Source: Eunapius fragilis
Lineage: Eukaryota; Porifera; Demospongiae; Spongillida; Spongillidae
Reading direction: 5' to 3'
Length of the DNA: 64,000 bases
NCBI GenBank assembly: GCA_963681505.1
Contig: OY811971.1
Location: 5,730,256-5,794,255 of the forward strand
Part shown: in pieces, positions 18,308 to 30,350 of the stretch
How the letters are laid out: every line of letters begins with the position of its first letter
Position numbering within the stretch: position 1 is the first letter of the stretch
Notes under the pieces: generated by a model
The model's input: only the letters and a program-made list of their open reading frames with translations
What the model was told of the DNA's origin: nothing
Databases searched by the model: none
Program-made: the position numbers and the translations under genes

Positions 18308-20140
18308 ATGTCCAATGCTCATGGTGTTTTATCAATTGGAGTGGCCTCAGCTCAGGCAATGTTTCAGAAGGCCATGGGCATGATCCTTCAAGGGTTACCA
18401 GGGGTGATATGTTTTATAGATGACATCCTGGTATCTGGAAGAACAGAGGAGGAGCAGTTCTTCAGACTAGAGGAAGTGCTAAAAAGACTAAAGAACTATG
18501 GGTTGAGAGTAAAGAAAAACAAGTGTGCATTTCTGAAAGAGTCAGTGGAGTATTTAGGTCATAAATTAGATGCCTCTGGACTGCACCCATTAAGCAGCAA
18601 GGTAGAAGCTATTGTTCAAGCCCCGGAACCACAGAATGTACAACAGTTGCGGTCATTCTTGGGTCTACTCAATTATTATGGCAAATTCATCAAGAACCTC
18701 GCCACCTTACTACATCCATCAAACAAGCTTGTACAACAGAATTTTATGTGGTCTTGGTCTATGGACTGTAAGATTGCTTTTAAGCGAGCAAAGCAGGAAT
18801 TGGCGTCATCGAAAGTGCTGGCCCACTATGATATCAAACTGCCTATCAAGTTGGCTGCGGATGCCTCTTCGTATGGAGTGGGAGCAGTGATATCTCATGT
18901 CTATCCCGATGGGACAGAACGACCAATTGCATTTGCCTCGAGAACATTGTCCATGGCTGAACAAAACTATGCTCAGCTTGAGAAGGAAGCTTTGGGACTA
19001 GTGTTTGGAGCAAAACGTTTTCCCTTATTTGTTCGGAAGGACTTTCACACTGGTTACGGATCAATGACCATCCTGGGACCAAAGACGGGAATACCATCAT
19101 TAGCAGCAGTTAGACTTCAGCGATGGGCTATTGTGCTGTCAGCATATCAGTACGACATTGAGTTCAAGAGGACAGCCCATGGAAATGCTGACAGCCGGAC
19201 TTTCCAGGCTACCATTGCCAGCTGCAGGTGCTGGAACAGATGAGTTGACTGTGGCTGATGTGGATGTCTTCAACATTGCGCAAATTGAAGCACTCCCGGT
19301 GACAGTGGATCAGTTAGGACAAGCTACTAGACGTGATGTGGATCTAAGCCAGGTATGGCAGTATGTGCAGTTAGGTTGGCCTGATGTGGTTCCAGAGCAT
19401 CTAAAGCCATATAGTTTTCGCAGAGATGAGCTTACTGTACAAGGGAATGTATACTAATGTGGGGTATTAGGGTTATTGTACCTAACAAGTTGCATTTATG
19501 AGTTACATAGGGAGCATCCCGGGGTAGTTCGGATGAAGAGTATTACCAGAAGTTATATTTGGTGACCTGGGCTTGATCAGGCTATTGAGCGTGTGGTTAA
19601 GGCTTGTTCTCAGTGTCAAGTTGTGAAAAATACAGCACCTGTGGCCCCCCTGCATCCATGGATTTGGCCTGCTCAGCCATGGCAGATAATCCACATAGAT
19701 TTTGTGGGTCCATTCATGGGGAAATCGTTTCTGTTGGTGGTCGATGCTCACTACAAGTGGCCTGAGGTGCGGGAGATGAAAAGTATTACCGCAGCGAAGA
19801 CAATAGAGGTGTTGAGGCAGTTGTTTGCGTCATATGGACTACCAGAGCAGGTTTATCGGACAATGGTCCTCAGTTTACAGCCAATGAGTGCACGGAGTAC
19901 ATAAAGATGAATGGCATCAAACACATTCGTAGTACACCTTACCATCCCTCTACCAATGGACTTGTGGAACGCTTTGTTCAAACATTCAAAAGAGCGATGA
20001 GGGCAAGTGAAAGTGAGGGGAAACCAATGCATCATCGATTGGCCAATTTCCTACTTACCTACAGAAGTTCGCCGCATGCAACTACCAATGTGGCACCAGG
20101 TGACCTTGTAAAAAAAAGGAATTTAACCACCAGGTTTTGA
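18308..20140 (+). mobile_element. Ty3/gypsy retrotransposon fossil, 5' truncated
   Basis: Family: Ty3/gypsy (Metaviridae-type) LTR retrotransposon. Parts present in order are the palm half of reverse transcriptase with the FIDDIL active-site region near 18,413, the connection and RNase H region to about 19,200, and an integrase region with zinc-finger and catalytic-core remnants at about 19,500-20,140. Gag, protease and the front of reverse transcriptase are absent, and no flanking LTR pair was found. It is broken by several changes and is a fossil of moderate age. A hairpin MITE begins about 140 bp beyond the integrase remnant. Confidence 0.88.
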
Positions 20141-20276: not shown

Positions 20277-20561
20277 ACAAGTAAAAAAAACATTCTCTAA
20301 CGAGAAAGTTTTGGGATATAGGAATTGGAGGCAATGGTGGTGTAAAAAGGAAGGGAACAAGGTTTTGAGAAAAGGGTAGTGAGACAATAATCCTATATTT
20401 AGCACTTCTTTTGGTTCTGTTACATCTACACGTGCTTAATATAGGATTTTTGTCTCATTACCCTTTTCTCAAAACCTTGTTCCCTTCCTTTCTACACCAC
20501 CATGCCTCCAATTCCTATATCCCACTAACTTTCTCGTTAGAGAATGTTTTTCTTTACTTGT
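20277..20561. mobile_element. Hairpin MITE, copy 1
   Basis: This is a foldback element of about 285 bp. It begins ACAAGTAAA and ends with the inverse TTTACTTGT, followed on each side by the CATTCTCTAACGAGAAAG block and its complement. The arms are about 130 bp with a short loop around TTCTTTTGGTTCTGTTACAT. It shares with the other copies the terminal block, the GGTGTAAAAAG box and the CCTATATTTAGCAC box, while the stretches between differ. It has no coding capacity. Confidence 0.9.
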
Positions 20562-21754: not shown

Positions 21755-22943
21755 GATATTCATCGTAACGTTCAGTGATACAACCTTCACTAGCTTTTGA
21801 TGAACAATGGCTGTCTTAGCAACAGACTGTAGATGGTTCAGTTTGTGGGCCTGTCACGGCTGATTTTGTCCTATCCTGAAATGGTCCTAGGACCGTTTCA
21901 GGCAGCCTATTTTGGTCCAGCGGACTGAAACAGGCTCTGCCTGAAACGGTCCTAGGACCATTTTAGGTTGCTTATTTTGGTCCTACTCTGCTTATTTTAG
22001 TCCTATACCACCGGACAGCCGGAAAAAGTCCCAGGACCACAAAGGCTGCCTACACGAGCACATTGGTTCTTATTTTGGTCCGGTGGGCTAATCAGCTAGT
22101 AGTTTTTGCTTGATTTGGCCACGATCCTGTATAGTCCAAAAATGAACATGCTAGGTTTTAAATCGGAAGTTAAGATTGATAAGCTACATCTGCACACGAG
22201 TATTATACGTTGACTCAAACTGTTTTAAAAATAAATAAAATAAAACTTTGTCATGCAGGTACGCACACATACTCACACGCACACTTACATATAAGTAATA
22301 CACACATGGCTATAGTCCTTCAAATATCGTATGCACACACTCGCACGCATGCATCGCGCGCGGACCCCCCCCCCCCCCACACACACACACGCAAACGCAC
22401 GCGCGGACACCCCCCATACACACACTCACGCTCCCGCGGACAACCTCTCTCCCACTCTCACACATATCATGCACACACGTCATGCACACCACGCGGACCG
22501 GTGGATGCACTTTGTTTACGCAGCCGATACTGACTGCCATATAGCGAAGCGAGGGAAGAGAGCATGCTTGCATCTCTGGCCGGAATCCCATGAAGAACCA
22601 CGGTCTTGTATCGCACTAGCTTATAGACACATAGTTTGCCATTCTAAGTAATAATAAAAAGCATGTTCTTTTTTTTTGGTACTTTTCTTCGTATATGGGT
22701 CTTATCTGGCAGAGCTCGAGAATCCTCTGATTCCCTCATTAGGCTTGCTCCAGACGATCGTTTTCTGGCTCCGAATCGCTGGACGTAGATGGGACCAAAA
22801 AGTGACACGAGGGACCGAATCGAGCACTCAATTCGGTCCGGCCGGACCATTTCAGGCTGCGTGTTTTGGTCTGGCCGGACCAAAATCAGACGCGGACCGA
22901 AATATTCGTGACAGGCCCTCACCTGTGGTGCTAGACGGTCATT
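21755..22943 (-). pseudogene. Roc-COR GTPase exon fragment, split by a transposon
   Basis: 21,755-21,851 and 22,914-22,943 match contiguous sequence in the Roc-COR exon of the copies at about 40,785-40,890 and 55,690-55,795, including CTTCACTAGCTTTTGATGAA. The region codes for the segment just after the Roc G4 motif. Between the two halves lies a 1,062-bp non-autonomous Ginger-like element, flanked by GGCC on both sides where the intact genes have one GGCC. Only about 130 bp of host exon remains, so it is a dead fragment. Confidence 0.8.
21852..22913. mobile_element. Non-autonomous Ginger-like DNA transposon
   Basis: The element starts TGTCACGG and ends CGTGACA, with about 100 bp at each end rich in GGTCC and GGACC palindromes like those of the coding Ginger element at 23,385-27,432. 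The target duplication is GGCC (21,848-21,851 and 22,914-22,917), and the pre-insertion sequence can be read from the intact Roc-COR genes. The interior contains CA-rich microsatellite and a poly(C) run near 22,365 but no integrase. Confidence 0.85.
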
Positions 22944-23070: not shown

Positions 23071-23384
23071 TAACATCTCCTTACGCATCGTTATACATAC
23101 GTTAGGCCCCCATGGGCGACCCCTGCTTTTATAGACGGACGGGGGGGGCAGAGGTGAGGGGGAGTGGGCGCCAATTATAGGCAGGTAGGGGGCAGGGAGG
23201 GGAGGGAATTAGAAATACTGAGGGTTGAACATTATTAACATGCATTTATTAGAAGGGGGTCGGTGGTGGGGCACCAAGGCCATTCCAATAAAAATGTTCA
23301 GCGGTTTCTGGTCGAATGCCTTAATTATCGAAAGTGATGCGTGTGGGCTATTGTCATTAAAGTTGTAAACATGGGGGAGGGGAA

Positions 23385-23510
23385 TGTCACGGAAATTTCG
23401 GTCCGCTGAAAATTTTGGTCCCGGACCAATGTTTTCAGAAAATTTTGGTCCGGTCGGACCAATTTTATCTGAAAAAAATGGTCCGTGTCCAGAAAAAAAG
23501 GTCCGGAGAT
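23385..23510. repeat. Left terminal inverted repeat of Ginger1-like element
   Basis: It begins TGTCACGGAAATTTCGGTCC and contains about five GGTCC or GGACC boxes spaced by A/T-rich text. It pairs with 27,309-27,432. Confidence 0.85.
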
Positions 23511-23552
23511 TTATTTCAAGCGTCCACGTGGTTGATATTCAGTTTGCGAGTG

Positions 23553-25714
23553 ATGGCGGAGATTGATGAAACATTTGACGATGATTCTGATTGTGATGAT
23601 CTTGTCGAGGAGGCCTATGCCTATTTAGTATCGAAGAAGTATCCTGAATGTGTCAGTGAGATCAAAAAGAGGGCGATACGAAGGAAAGCTGCGAAGTTGA
23701 CAATATCTATTGAAGGAGAGCTATTGTACAAGCACAAGCAGGGAAAGGAAAAGGTAAGCAGCGTTTTATTAATGCTGCCATTATCGTTTTTGATATTTTT
23801 GGTAATGACATGTATGTATGTATGTGTCCAATAAAGTAGCCATCTTTTACATAGAAGGAAGTGCTATTGCATTACATCCAGAGTTTGGAAGAGCGCCAGA
23901 AGATCCTACTGGCATGTCACATTGATTCCACTTCTGGTCACATGGGTAAGACCAGGACACTATACAGGATCAAGGAACGATTCATGTGGCATGGCATGGT
24001 TAAAGACGTTGTTAGCTTGGTGAGCTCCTTATTTAACTGCATGGTACTCCTTTATTTTTTATATTTCAAATTCAATCCTGGTTCTGTTATATTTCTGCAG
24101 CTATATCAAAATGTGATGTGTGTCAATGCAAGAACAGAAAGCTAACTACTAGAGTGCCTGAGCTTCATCCCATTCCAGTTAAAGCACCCTGGTACATGGT
24201 TGGCATTGATTTCATTGGCCCTCTGAGCCCAGTTGCAAAGGACGGAAGTTGCTACTTCTCACTATCAGTGATTGCTTCACAAAGTGGGTTGAGGTGGTAC
24301 CTACCAGGGGCGGATCCAGAATTTTTTTGCGAGGGGGGGCAAAGGGGAGGGGCGTTAATAATCATGGTTTGGGCGTGGCTACGAAATATTGCGCGTAAGA
24401 GAGGAAGATGTACCCGGGGTCTGGGGCTTAGCCCCAGCCGCTTTTTACTGTTATCATGTTACTTCGGCGCGTTTTCGTTGTATTTGTATCATCAGGGCGA
24501 CGTAAGACACCGCCCCTTGTAGCTATAATTTCTAACTTGGCGGGGGGGGGGGGGGGGCAAAACCCAGTTTCCCCCCCCATGTATCCGCCACTGCCTACAG
24601 TCAACAAAATGGCATCTACAGTGGCAAGTTCACTGCTTAAGGTTAGCAAGTGTACAATTATTTATTTGCACATGTAGTTATTTGTACATGTAGCTGTGGT
24701 TTGACCAAGTCTTTTAGTTTAATTTTGATAATTATCATTTTGATGATAACTTTTGTGGTACAAGGCATGCTCTTACCATGCAACTGATGAGATGTTTTGG
24801 TGAGCTCCAAACATTTATGGCCATGTCCTTACTTTAACTACAGATATTTATGCGAATGGGACTGCCACATGTGTTGCTTTCAGACAATGGCAGTGAGTTC
24901 TGTAATGCACTGAATGACCAACTGTCAGAGATGCTAGGAATTAAGAGGAGGTTAACTACACCTTACCACCCTCAGGTTTGTTCCATGAATGTTATTGTGT
25001 AGTATACGTATAAAAATGTGTACACACAAACTGATGTCATCCGATCTCTCTCAACTCTGACTTGTAGGCCAATGGTCTTGATGAGCACTTCAATCAGACT
25101 GTTCAAAACATGCTGTTGAAATATGTGTCTTCAATGAAGGATATGTGGAGTCACTATCTAGACACTTGTGCCTTCACATATAACACTTCCCAACATGATA
25201 CACACCATTCATGTTAATGTTTGGTCGCCGAGCAACTCTTCCAATTGATGTTGAGCTTGAACGGCAATGTTCTGAAGATCTGTGCAAGACTTATTGGGAA
25301 CTTGAAGAACACCCCTATCCTGCTGCATTTTCAGATCATGCACGCATATTGGACGAGGCCAAAGGCAACATTATCACTGCACAGTTGAGGCAGAAAGAAT
25401 CATACGACAAAAAGCACTGCAAACCAGGCCCATTTCAGTGTGACCAGTTGGTATTGCTGAGAAACTTCTCCCGTAAAAAGGTCAAGGGTGGAAAACTGAC
25501 AGAAAGATTTCTTGGGCCATACACAATCATAAATGTGCTGCCAAATGGTGTATATGAGATACGCAATGAGGAAGGCAAGACTACTCATGCTACTGGCAGC
25601 CACTTAAAAATGTACATGTCAAGTGATGCATGTTGTATGGAAGATGAAGATCAAAGTTCTTCACAAGGAGATTGTGTAAGTAAAATTTTAGTGTGTAAAT
25701 ATCATACAATTTAG
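23553..25714 (+). pseudogene. Ginger-type integrase/transposase, multi-exon, broken
   Basis: The first exon starts at ATG 23,553 (MAEIDETFDDDSD, acidic) and ends at a GTAAGC donor after 23,753. The next exon (about 23,855-24,018) has the HH half of the H2C2 zinc finger (HIDSTSGHMGKTRT). The CC half (CDVCQCKN) follows a further intron near 24,110. The catalytic core has Asp in VGIDFIGPL, Asp in LSDNGSEFCN (about 24,890) and Glu in the ANGLDEHFNQT region (about 25,085), again on separate exons. The C-terminal part at 25,211-25,714 shows the GPY/F-type module (RFLGPYTIINVL). Family proteins join and nick DNA ends during transposition. A MITE interrupts the core, and there are further breaks. Introns distinguish it from gypsy polyproteins. 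Confidence 0.82.
24305..24593. mobile_element. MITE nested in the Ginger integrase
   Basis: This is a 289-bp element with inverted ends CAGGGGCGGATCCAG and CAGTGGCGGATACA (read inward) and CCTAC repeated on both flanks (24,300-24,304 and 24,594-24,598). It holds a poly(G) run near 24,542 and no coding sequence. Ends of the same type recur at about 45,000, 60,050 and, as a right end only, 13,675. Confidence 0.82.
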
Positions 25715-26289
25715 AGATACTTGTCAGTCTACAGCTGATAAATGTTCTCCTAAGGATGTAATAATTGATGCCATACATGTAAGTTTACGGGGGGTGTATG
25801 TAACTCTTAGCCACCATGGAGTATGCGTTGTTTATAGGTTGCTCCCTTCTGGTACTCTGGCAAGCCCTCATTCTTCTGTTGAGAATGGCAATGGGTTTGA
25901 AGATGATTCAGATTGTCACACAGGAGGCCAATCTAAAGGTTTGTCTTATATATCCTTTTTCACTTTCTTAGAGTATAAGACTTGGTACATTTTCAATACA
26001 CCCTGTAATCGTGCCCATCAAAATGACTGTGCTGAAGTCAGTGGCATTGATAGTGGTTGCACTGTACTGGAGGATTGTTCAGCTTCTGAAAAACGAGATA
26101 TCATTCCGTAAGGTGAATTACTTTGTGTACAGCAGAGTAATGTACTACCTATAGTACAAAAAATTACACACCCGGTCAAAACTTCTGTTCATTTTGATTT
26201 GGATTGCACTCTGCATTGTATGTGTAAACTGATGATTTAACTTTTATTTTCCAACAGAGAAAGTGCCCTTTCACAAGCGAAATGAAAAA

Positions 26290-26835
26290 AAAAATAGTGG
26301 GTGGGGATTGGCTGACTGATGAGCATATGTTCTATGCACAAGAGCTTCTCAGAATGCAGTTCCCCATGATTCATGGATGGCAGAGCACTCTTCTAGCTCA
26401 GAACAATGGATTTCTTCCAGCCAAGGTGGATGCCATTAAGATTCAGACTCCCACTGGGTAACGTCAGCACGTCTTGGTGGTACAGTCACTCATTTTGACT
26501 GCCTTAAGGTTGGAAGTCATATGTCTTTAACCCTAACCCATCAGTTATACCAGGTGTACAGAACATCAATATGTGAGAGTGGGGGGAATGCATTCTTAGC
26601 TGTGAATGTTGCTACCGTCCAAAAGCAGCGTGGCAGTGATGATTGCGGGGTTTTTGCAATAGCGTTTGCATTGCATGCTGCCCTGGGTTACTGCCTAGAA
26701 GAAATTGAGTTCGACCAGGCTACTATGCGAAACCACCTCCTAAAATGCTTTTCTACAAGAAACTTCTCTCCTTTTCCCACCAGAAAAGTCAGAAGAGCAT
26801 GTCATACCCGCATCATGAATATACATAGGATTTTG
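26290..26835 (+). pseudogene. Ulp1-like cysteine protease domain of the Ginger element
   Basis: The front part, GDWLTDEHMFYAQELL followed by QFPMIHGWQST (26,296-26,400), matches the N-terminal part of Ulp1/SENP-type domains found in transposons. The back part, QKQRGSDDCGVFAIAFA (about 26,620-26,670), contains the conserved Gln and catalytic Cys motif. The His/Asp region between them is poorly preserved and the two parts are not in one frame. Ulp1-type enzymes remove SUMO-like modifiers; what they do for a transposon is not known. Confidence 0.78.
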
Positions 26836-26837
26836 TA

Positions 26838-26984
26838 GATGTGTTTTGCAGCTGTCAGATGCCTGACACCTATGGGGATATGGTGCAGTGTGGTCTTTGT
26901 GAACAGTGGTTTCACATCACGTGTGTTGGCTTCCACTCTCTTCCATCAAGTGCAGAAGAATGGAATTGTTCACTCTGTACATAA
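26838..26984 (+). CDS. PHD finger, C-terminal domain of the Ginger element
   Basis: An open frame of 48 codons beginning DVFCSCQM and ending WNCSLCT, then TAA. It shows the PHD zinc-ligand order: Cys-x-Cys, then CGLC, then W-F-H-I-T-C, then Cys-x-x-Cys. PHD fingers usually read histone H3 tails and could direct insertion or chromatin binding. It overlaps the end of the Ulp1 frame in another frame, so it was probably joined by splicing or belongs to the broken tail of the same gene. Confidence 0.8.
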   Translation, partial: DVFCSCQMPDTYGDMVQCGLCEQWFHITCVGFHSLPSSAEEWNCSLCT

Positions 26985-27308
26985 ATCTTGGTGCTTTACC
27001 TTTAATGAGTATTTATATTCAATGAGTTGCACAAATGAACTACTACAACTTGGCAGGTTTTGGTTGCTCTACCACCAGAGTACATGTAGTCTTCTACAAT
27101 GAGTAAGGAGTCCCAAAGCACCCTTCTAATAGGTTCTATTACATGTCATATAATAGATCGAGACGAGAGCATCAGTGATTATGCATGTATATTCACTTAC
27201 CACTCAATCCCGTCGATGAACTCAAGAGGCGGAGCTACAAACATAACTTGTATGTACTACAGCGATTACAATGCAGATGGTGGTGAACTTCATTATAGAC
27301 TTAGAAAA

Positions 27309-27432
27309 CAATGTCCGGACCAAAAATTTCAGGGCGGACCGTATTTTTCGAAATAATCGGTCCGGGCGGACCGAAATTCAGCGAAAATTTTGGTCCGGGA
27401 CCAAATATTTCAGGACCAAAATTCCAGTGACA
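27309..27432. repeat. Right terminal inverted repeat of Ginger1-like element
   Basis: It ends TTCCAGTGACA. Read inward it runs TGTCACTGGAATTTTGGTCC, with the same GGTCC/GGACC boxes as the left end, followed by the GGAA duplication. Confidence 0.85.
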
Positions 27433-28053
27433 GGAAAGGTTGCATTTTACAAATTAAAGCGTAACTAACGACATCCTTTTACAAGCTCTTTCTAAACCCA
27501 TGCATGCGAATTGTTGCAAAAATATCAATCTGTCCAGTACCTAGCGCAAAGAAGCATTAATCTGGAGGACGTATTCAAGCGATTCTTATCATGTAATTAT
27601 ATGGACACAAGAATATGACATTATTTTCATAACACTGTAATCGTCTTGCATAATGTGTACGCGGTTGGCATATGTACTTGTATAAAATATCTAATTCGCC
27701 CATTGCTCCCCGCCCCCCCCCCCCCCCCCCCCCTTCCCCAATGCAAATGTAGATCATTACTTTTTATAGGGATATGAAGCACTCCCATGCAGGCCCGAAG
27801 CCAGGTTGTGTGTTTAATGGGGGTGCAAAGAGTGGTAAAGCGGATATTACGGCAGACCCCGAGTATATACATGATTTCGTGGGCTTCCTAACTGTACCGT
27901 AATGTGCAAAAAAACTCATTATTAAAAAGCCGAACGGTAATTAGCTTTGAAATTGTAATTGTTGGCAACATGTCCTTATATGGTGGGCTCGCCCCTCTTT
28001 TAATAATTCGCCGAAATCTGTATACCACTTTTCTGGAGGTTAGTAGTCTTTGC

Positions 28054-28199: not shown

Positions 28200-29619
28200 T
28201 TACCACACTGTGCAAAAAATAGGATATACGCTATTGTATATTTTGCGTATATTTCGAGTATACGCATGAATATACGCGTGCGTATACGCGAAATATCCCA
28301 CTGGTATATTTTGCGTATAGAACCAATTTCGCACTGCGTATATTTCGAGTATCCTCAAATGTATCACGTGCGCTTATGGAGGATTCTCTAATTAATGTCT
28401 CCGGATACTACACTGTACCTACGTTGACCGTATACTGTATTGGGTACGCCACCCGATTATGTTCGTTGTATACTGGCTTGATTAGTATTAAAATTATAAT
28501 CAATATTAAATAAAGCAATACAATCAATAGACAACGTTCAAGCTCTCCAGCCATCCAGGAAGGAGATACTCCAGTAGTGGCCCTCCAACCCGCCGTTGCC
28601 ACGAGTTGCTCAGAAATCCATTGCAACCTCTTCTAACGAAACGCGCGGCAGTAGTTGAGCGTAGGCTTCAAACTGCTTCCCTGTACTGTCACCATAGTCC
28701 ATATAGCTACAGCAAAATAGAGCATCCATACGATACAAATGCAAACAGAGGCCTACACTGACGGCGGGATTGCTTGACAAGCTCAGCTGAATCTCAAGTT
28801 TCCTTGTCTAGCTGCAGGGAATATACAGGGTTAAAACAAACGAACCATTACCTTATACTCCAAAGCAATCCGCTACTTCTCTATCTCCGCTCTTCGTATA
28901 ATTTGTCAATTCTGACAACAGACACTGATAAACAGCAAGTGTGAATGAAAACGCAATCTCTTACCCGCTCTGCCTTTGCTAGTTTTTATGACGTCTCTAA
29001 ATTTGATCGAGAAAAAAAAGGTGATGATCACTGCTTACGCTTCGAGACTTCAGCTGGATTCTCCTTAGTAGGAAAAAAAAAGCCGATATAACGTTACTGT
29101 ACCTGTACAGAGAGTGATGTCCTTTTCCCTCGAGTTGGTCTTACAGCATCGCTTTGAGACAGTTTTAGATCTGTAGTTTCGCAACCTCCTGCAGTAGTGT
29201 AACGGACCGTGCAAACAGCATCGCCATGCTGCCTAGGACCTAGGGTTTGGCGCGGTCTTCTTCGTCATCATCGTACTAGTATCGATATACATGTAGGTTC
29301 TGCTGTGACGACATGACTTCATCGTTTCTCGGGGACCTGTTAGAGGAGAGACTTGGGAATTAGCCACTAGTCCCTCAATTTACTTGAAGACCCACCTAAG
29401 ATATTTCTTCTGGATGATAGGAACGTACGGTTATAGTTGCAGTAGATTTCCCGACGATGACGCCATATATGCATGCGGCTTTGAAGAGTCTACGCATGCG
29501 CGTTACATTCGTTTGACAAGAAACCTCGTACACACTGTATTTGTTCTGCTCAGAGTGGGGTTTCAAAAGCAACTTAGAAATGACTTATTTGATGTACACA
29601 AGACTGTATTACAATACCT

Positions 29620-30350
29620 GGTCTGGCCACTAACATGATTCTATTTGATGCACACCTACGAACATGACTCAATTAGATGCACACCAGGGACTGCCACTTT
29701 ATTTGATGCAAATAAGCAAACCCATATCTGGCCGCTATCCTGATTCTATTTGAAGCCCACCAGGTCTGGTCGCTACCAAGATTCTATTAGATGCACACCA
29801 GGGATTGGCCACTACTAGAATTTAATGATTCAATTTGATGCAAACTGGGTCAGTTTGCTAACATGATTCTATTTGATGCACACCAGGGTCTGATCGATAT
29901 CACAAACCTACCAGATGTACAACAGCGACTGGCCACTAGCGTGTCTTTACTTGATGCAGACGAGTTAATATGATTCCATTTGATACACACTAGGTCTGGC
30001 TGCTAACATGATTCTATATGATGCACACCAGGGACTGCTGCTCGCATTACTTGATATGCTAGTACGTGGCAATTCCTAATGTGAGGGTCATGGTAGCAGT
30101 GTGCATCAGACAGAATCATATTAGCGGCCAGACCTGGTGTGCATCAAATAAAGCTATTGGCCATTCTCTGGTGTGCAGCTGATAGAATTGTGGTATCAAC
30201 CAGATCCTAGTGAGCATCAAATAGAAACATGGTAGCGACCAGACCAATGTGCATCAAATAGAATCAGGATACCCTGATTTCATAAAAAAGATTCAATCTG
30301 ATGCACACCAGGTCTAGCCGCTATCCTGATTCCATTTGATCACATGACCG
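29620..30350. repeat. Imperfect minisatellite with an inverted middle section
   Basis: Units of about 40-60 bp contain GATTCTATTTGATGCACACC and a GGTCTGGCCGCTA box. From about 30,085 to 30,275 the same units run on the opposite strand (GTGTGCATCAAATAGAATC), then the original orientation returns. No coding sequence is seen. Confidence 0.8.

Follow-up and report, generated by a model that had tools for sequence, protein, structure and literature searches.

The window analysed here is a stretch of 64,000 nucleotides from Eunapius fragilis (assembly GCA_963681505.1, contig OY811971.1, positions 5,730,256 to 5,794,255; G000:C1:5730256-5794255 in our genome set). An element at window positions 23385-27432 had been read in a first-pass annotation as a Ginger1-like DNA transposon carrying an integrase, an Ulp1 protease, and a PHD finger. 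It was compared with the whole genome of this sponge (219 Mb, 24 contigs). The features of the element and of a nearby relative are as follows.

23381..23384, no strand: left target duplication GGAA, read directly and repeated at 27433-27436.
23385..23506, plus strand: 5' terminal repeat with a TGTCAC start and 7 GGTCC/GGACC boxes; the same end occurs in many genomic copies.
23553..23753, plus strand: integrase exon 1, with ATG and the YP...LLYK stretch, mapped on copy L021; GT at 23754.
23855..24019, plus strand: integrase exon 2, first half of the H2C2 zinc finger, mapped on L021; AG before, GT after.
24101..24641, plus strand: integrase exon 3, rest of H2C2 and first catalytic D, interrupted and out of frame; 541 nt versus 246 nt in L021.
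24305..24593, plus strand: later insertion, a 289-bp repeat with ends CAGGGGCGGAT and CAGTGGCGGAT; CCTAC duplicated at 24300-24304 and 24594-24598.
24844..24975, plus strand: integrase exon 4, second catalytic D, SDNGSEF, mapped on L021.
25068..25675, plus strand: integrase exon 5, catalytic E and GPY motif, one base short, mapped on L021.
26258..26838, plus strand: Ulp1-like protease region, with SHW, D, and Q......DDCG motifs visible; Pfam PF02902 on 26440-26838, below cut-off.
26838..26984, plus strand: PHD finger, closing the coding region; Pfam PF00628, E 4e-9.
27313..27432, plus strand: 3' terminal repeat with a GTGACA end; the last 122 bases contain 7 GGTCC/GGACC boxes.
27433..27436, no strand: right target duplication GGAA, read directly.
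21852..22913, plus strand: related element of 1,062 bp, no recognised gene, TGTCACGG...GTGACA, GGCC duplication, 16 boxes.

Read directly, the element opens with TGTCACGG and closes with CAGTGACA, so that its termini are TGTCA and TGACA, and GGAA stands immediately outside both. The terminal inverted repeats (TIRs) are about 120 bp long and imperfect, with a 70-nt core that is 77% complementary. GGTCC/GGACC boxes were found seven times in the first 122 bases, seven times in the last 122, and not once in the intervening 3,804. The 14 boxes in these 244 bases compare with a mean of 0.9 and a maximum of 5 in 1000 dinucleotide shuffles of the two element ends. Direct reading and box counts thus uphold the first-pass description of the termini, the box-packed inverted ends, and the flanking GGAA, as well as that of the relative at 21,852 with its GGCC duplication.

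The boxes were proposed to be transposase binding sites, and we retain them as putative sites of this kind. They might instead be satellite or fold-back filler, since they form nested palindromes and are retained in elements without room for a gene; internal boxes number 2 and 5 in the short elements. However, the window copy and the copies L009 and L021 have boxes at both ends and none inside, and three further lineages, with differing spacers, show boxes with a GTCC/GGAC core in their 3' ends when read by eye. We consider filler an unlikely origin, though one that keeps some weight.

The integrase, Ulp1-like, and PHD domains of the window element share a single orientation, which agrees with the first-pass claim; Pfam detected the window PHD finger, and the integrase exons were located by alignment to L021, a copy of a sister family (family B, described below). 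The joined integrase exons of L021 gave H2C2 (PF17921, E 7e-18) and rve (PF00665, E 1.5e-11), both over cut-off, and its last exon gave PHD (E 9e-7) and Peptidase_C48. The Ulp1-like PF02902 score was 18.9 bits (E 0.0015) in the window, under the 20.7 cut-off, 22.7 bits in L021, and 27.7 bits in L094, a member of a further lineage. PF02902 and PF00628 both exceeded their cut-offs in L021 and L094. A search against NCBIfam gave no matches.

The integrase half of L021 comprises five exons, and introns 1-4 are of GT-AG type. A further AG acceptor precedes the Ulp1 part, which gives at least five introns (at least six exons) by splice signals alone. All five integrase exons are open in two of the four B copies; L021 has one stop in these exons, and in L024 exon 2 is shortened and three stops occur. 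A TAG stop common to all B copies was rejected as a stop, as it is an intron end (TAG before GCC) read in frame. Window exon 5 showed 75% protein identity to family B over 287-448. The GPY motif was recognised by eye as ERFVGPYKI in L021, RFLGPYTI in the window, and WVGPYLI in L094. Inspection by eye of the window, L021, and L094 shows the H, D, Q, and C positions known from yeast Ulp1; H is changed to Y in L009, and L028 reads DGCG. By sequence, the PHD finger is nearest to those of DIDO1, PHF8, PHF2, TAF3, and ING proteins, among others. Several of these PHD fingers read methylated H3K4.

In L094 a single frame, 748 residues long and open at the start, runs from the integrase C-terminus (GLVERFNQ, GPY) through a 20-residue tandem repeat to Ulp1 and PHD, so the three parts belong to one protein there. 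The L094 integrase piece matched six places at 100% (rounded) identity, L094 itself among them, with frames of 608-748 residues. The repeat is a 60-bp tandem repeat (L094:914-1713, ten overlapping register copies) that lies in frame between integrase and Ulp1; the spread of frame lengths among near-identical copies is as expected if the repeat number varies.

The association of the domains extends well beyond these copies. An Ulp1-PHD query gave 142 genome matches (140 of 1,113 candidates scored), many of them at 33-38% over both domains in long open frames, and the two domains occur together in families A and B, in L028, in L094, and in many further matches. At least 38 of the 142, from about 34 elements since four are second pieces, lie 0-6 kb downstream of a same-strand integrase match. 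Such pairs numbered 1, 0, 0, and 0 in four shifted controls.

The window copy itself is dead, because the 289-bp insert interrupts exon 3, exons 3 and 5 are frame-shifted, and Ulp1 and PHD lie in different frames. The inserted repeat has 254 candidate places in the genome; among the 40 scored, the window's included, the others are 88-95% alike.

Genome matches to the element ends amounted to at least 67 rows for the 5' end and at least 40 for the 3' end, from 40 scored out of 156 candidates in the first case and 40 out of 155 in the second; some 5' rows are second, inverted matches within one copy. Family A, that of the window element, has five further full-length copies (L009, L010, L012, L014, and L017) at 92.7-97.4% to that element. 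Family B has four copies (L021-L024) at 75.5-77.0% to the window element and 96.8-99.1% to one another. Eight less interrupted copies measure 3,699-3,768 bp. The elements of a third group are about 570-870 bp long and have no room for a gene; their ends are about 75-81% like those of the window element.

The family-A copies L015 and L016 (C7, 4.26 and 4.30 Mb) have near-identical 5' flanks and probably reflect a segmental duplication; the 3' flanks of L026, L053, and L054 (C1) are likewise in common. L043 and L096 sit in sequence that by eye resembles gypsy genes (reverse transcriptase, integrase).

For the target table we collected 40 two-ended elements, the window's two included, and removed one segmental duplicate. 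Exact 4-bp duplications flank 26 of the remaining 39, and all 26 have TGTCA...TGACA termini (L015 starts with TGTCAT). Other copies thus have the boundaries first proposed for the window element. The duplicated words were GAAC and GTGC (4 each), GACC (3), GCTC and GGCC (2 each), and, once each, GCAC, GTCC, GTTC, GGGC, GAGC, GTAC, GTTA, AATC, GGTG, TGTC, and GGAA. The pattern GNNC accounts for 21 of the 26, with G first in 24, C last in 23, and one or the other in all 26. In the same flanks 5-40 bp away, 87 of 1,716 four-letter words (5.1%) fit GNNC (binomial p 3e-23). A weak excess of G was also seen two bases ahead of the duplication (16/26). On the sides of the 13 unmatched elements GNNC was found in 14 of 26 cases (p 4e-12), and the short gene-less elements with similar ends obey the same rule. 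CCGG, CCGT, and ACGG occur in none of the 26 exact duplications. As GNNC predominates over CCGG/CCGT, target recognition probably lies in the outer base pair (G at position 1, C at position 4), and the middle two positions are nearly free. The first-pass view that the duplications are unlike CCGT-type sites therefore stands, but its GGAA is an outlier to the family rule and not a typical site.

Two flank arrangements stood out. The 60 bases read on each side of L024 (a B-family copy) are near-perfect reverse complements without a direct duplication, and L045, a short Ginger-like element, lies at the centre of a 20-bp GGTCCGGCGGCCGCCGGACC palindrome of GGTCC type, perhaps the end of another Ginger. 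These flanks do not point to another insertion mechanism, since the host sites are themselves an inverted repeat and a palindrome, respectively.

We conclude, with a probability of about 0.88, that the window element is a full-length but inactivated copy of a cut-and-paste DNA transposon of Ginger1 type, that its less decayed copies encode a gypsy-like integrase, an Ulp1-like protease, and a PHD finger, and that the target of its group is mostly GNNC. The Ginger1 features found are TGTNR-type ends, the TIR length, a 4-bp duplication, H2C2 and DDE, GPY, and a C-terminal Ulp1; the domain set matches that of published Ginger1, as first proposed. The window family is a Ginger1-like variant, because, apart from the only partly recognisable YPYY motif, all tested features except the target word agree.

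Several observations weigh against this conclusion. The published Ginger1 target, CCGG/CCGT, is absent, and strict membership fails on that point. The window's own GGAA departs by one letter from GNNC, 13 of the 39 complete elements have no exact duplication, and one-ended copies show GNNC at the surviving end in only 3 of 13 distinct cases (p 0.03; L016 merged with L015, and L053/L054 with L026). In the L094 lineage GNNC holds at only 7 of 17 ends, which is weaker than in the window's group. The YPYY motif is recognisable only in part: by eye and without a reference alignment, YP and LLYK are present and L replaces the third aromatic. The integrase tree described below has rows from this genome only, without named Ginger1, Ginger2, or gypsy clades, and a structure model of the Ulp1-PHD part (A1) had a mean pLDDT of 44, too poor for use.

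The duplications could be read differently if the element were one base longer on each side (CTGTCAC...GTGACAG), with a duplication of the middle 2 bp only and G..C as a flank preference. The C before and the G after the element are indeed near constant (23 and 24 of 26), and a GNNC target gives identical letters either way. For that reason an empty site is not decisive between the two boundary choices. The comparison of L014 with L020 as an empty site left an ambiguous picture, in which a gap of 4 bases adjoins the junction; L043 lies, by eye, inside an apparent gypsy reverse transcriptase gene, and removal of one copy of its duplication gave a gapless junction against L087 (70%). Against the longer ends, all four letters recur on either side in the case of GTTA, AATC, GGTG, TGTC, and GGAA, although this set was chosen for repeats. 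Among the unmatched elements, repetition of the middle two letters but not of an outer one is confined to L028 and L051, and TGT...ACA ends with 4-bp duplications are standard in the published Ginger1 description (PMC2836005, excerpts). We consider the longer boundaries improbable.

It is still less probable that the window's family is Ginger1 in the strict published sense and that its odd duplications arose by decay or chance. In the excerpted text of Bao et al. (2010, PMC2836005) the target was CCGG in 75% and CCGT/ACGG in 24% of 112 Hydra elements. The architecture, length, and end length equal those of Ginger1-9_HM in the same excerpts, and CGACA-type ends beside CCGG/CCGT/ACGG (11 of 12) do exist in this sponge genome. 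However, none of the exact duplications and none of the 17 L094-type ends carries such a word, and the same altered word on both sides is beyond what decay can give. As to the target, strict Ginger1 is refuted by the duplication table.

The integrase was also compared with gypsy elements of the same genome. A 12-row tree was built from seven gypsy representatives, two rows each of family A (stops as X) and family B, and L094, which covers 47% of the columns. The gypsy set is what remained of 30 loci once near-duplicates and any frame shorter than 200 residues had been removed. A branch (99/97) separated the Ginger integrases from the seven gypsy integrases. In six of the seven gypsy representatives the frame of the integrase also contains reverse transcriptase (RT) or RNase H; the seventh, L087, has only the integrase end in frame, and its upstream part aligns to a stretch that by eye resembles RT. 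Neither RT nor RNase H was found in a Pfam scan of 11 open frames of L021 (both strands) and its joined exons; in ten of these frames the matches were limited to H2C2, rve, a weak SH3_Tf2-1, and a weak CNOT1_HEAT_N below cut-off. A search of L022 for direct repeats of at least 60 bases found none, so it lacks long terminal repeats (LTRs). The tree and LTR check suggested in the first-pass annotation, run in part with own-genome rows, thus separates the element from same-genome gypsy. That it is a gypsy LTR retrotransposon fragment with ends matching by chance or formed by inverted LTRs is next to impossible: gypsy elements are abundant in the genome and their integrases show about 34-40% identity, but the many complete, bounded 3.7 kb copies with matching ends and 4-bp duplications refute it, together with the tree branch and the RT, RNase H, and repeat results.

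Two target rules were observed among the Ulp1-PHD lineages. The L094 lineage ends in GTGACA, and eight 3' flank words read AGCC, GGCC, GGCC, GCCC, GGGC, GGTC, GGCG, and TACC, the last adjoining a decayed end. By pattern count GNNC follows 7 of 17 L094-type ends (p 1e-5 versus 5.1%) and a CCGG/CCGT/ACGG-type word follows none; ten belong to neither class, two of these having been read as AGCC and GGCG. Seven of the 17 ends adjoin a checked Ulp1-PHD match. The L097/L098 lineage, with five places among the Ulp1-PHD matches, ends in CCTACGACA. Of 12 such ends, 11 are followed by CCGG (7), ACGG (3), or CCGT (1), and six adjoin an Ulp1-PHD match. In both copies read of the lineage with L110 and L111, the end is CTACGACA and the next four bases are CCGG. 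The flank words of CGACA-type elements are 3' sides only and not duplications, and no integrase match lies near their places in the listed integrase matches. Their probable membership of Ginger1 is suggested by the Ulp1-PHD part, the TGTCG-type end, the boxes, and the target. As far as read, the target word tracks lineage and terminal bases, because CGACA ends are followed by CCGG/CCGT/ACGG in nearly all cases and L094-type GTGACA ends in none.

Tentatively, and at somewhat less than even odds, we suggest that sister Ginger1 lineages in one genome use two target codes (CCGG/CCGT with CGACA, GNNC with GTGACA) while keeping the same protease-plus-histone-reader tail. A gypsy-type integrase would then have switched its specificity in nature, with terminal bases and target word changing together, and the PHD finger would be a counterpart of the chromodomain. 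A chromodomain steers some gypsy integrases.

In the mechanism that we propose, the integrase would bind the box arrays at both ends, and its multimerising parts would join the ends of the element. Insertion across a 4-bp stagger, with the outer base pair read, would leave the 4-bp duplication. The short gene-less elements may be moved in trans by full-length ones. The protease and PHD finger may act on chromatin or SUMO: the PHD finger could steer insertion toward marked chromatin, and the protease could strip SUMO or ubiquitin from proteins at the insertion site.

With two rules in one genome, the high CCGG/CCGT specificity described for Ginger1 from Hydra is not general to this plan. Matched pairs that differ in the target base pair read could be used to map the target-reading residues of the integrase, since gypsy-type and retroviral integrases have this catalytic core in common. 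The recurrence of Ulp1 with PHD across lineages makes the older proposal of a protease role in transposition (Bao et al. 2010, PMC2836005, excerpts) easier to test.

Around the element, the window holds a piece of gypsy-type integrase, recognised by eye, at 19766-20140. A 72-bp inverted repeat lies at 20334-20503 (94% complementary, 26-bp loop, more arms outside), and a diverged tandem repeat with TGATTCTATTTGATGCACACCAGG-like units at 29585-29994.

Among known systems, gypsy LTR retrotransposons are like the window's group in their integrase domains, GPY included, and unlike it in their RT, RNase H, and LTRs. Ginger2/TDD has a gypsy-like integrase, a TGT start, and a 4-5 bp duplication in common with it. 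In the excerpts of Bao et al. (2010, PMC2836005), however, Ginger2/TDD is without GPY and YPYY and has an AT-rich RTATAY target, whereas the window group has GPY (by eye) and another target. The CGACA-ended elements (L097/L098, L110/L111) resemble the group in Ulp1 and PHD (35-38% identity to B) and in GTCC-cored boxes, and differ in the CGACA terminus and the CCGG/CCGT/ACGG flank. A GNNC target does not appear in the accessible parts of PMC2836005, PMC10045372, PMC12863088, and PMC12440569; Repbase, Dfam, and subscription journals lie outside this search. In the literature searched, the words 'Ginger', 'CCGG', and 'target site duplication' led to Bao et al. (2010) alone.

As defined in those excerpts, Ginger1 has H2C2, DDE, GPY, TGTNR ends, repeats of 40-270 bp, and 4-bp duplications, and the window's group has the TGTNR start, long inverted ends, H2C2, DDE, and GPY motif. 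The Hydra table gives OTU or Ulp1 forms and a PHD finger in 1 of 12 Ginger1 families, whereas Ulp1-PHD is recurrent in this genome. That one family, Ginger1-9_HM (Table 1), was compared by its description and not by sequence. Its target would be the CCGG/CCGT/ACGG of Hydra Ginger1 against GNNC here, and it has 2 introns against at least 5. Yet it likewise carries Ulp1 and PHD behind the integrase, introns, and a 4-bp duplication, and its 3,758 bp and 120-bp ends compare closely with the 3,699-3,768 bp and about 122 bp found here.

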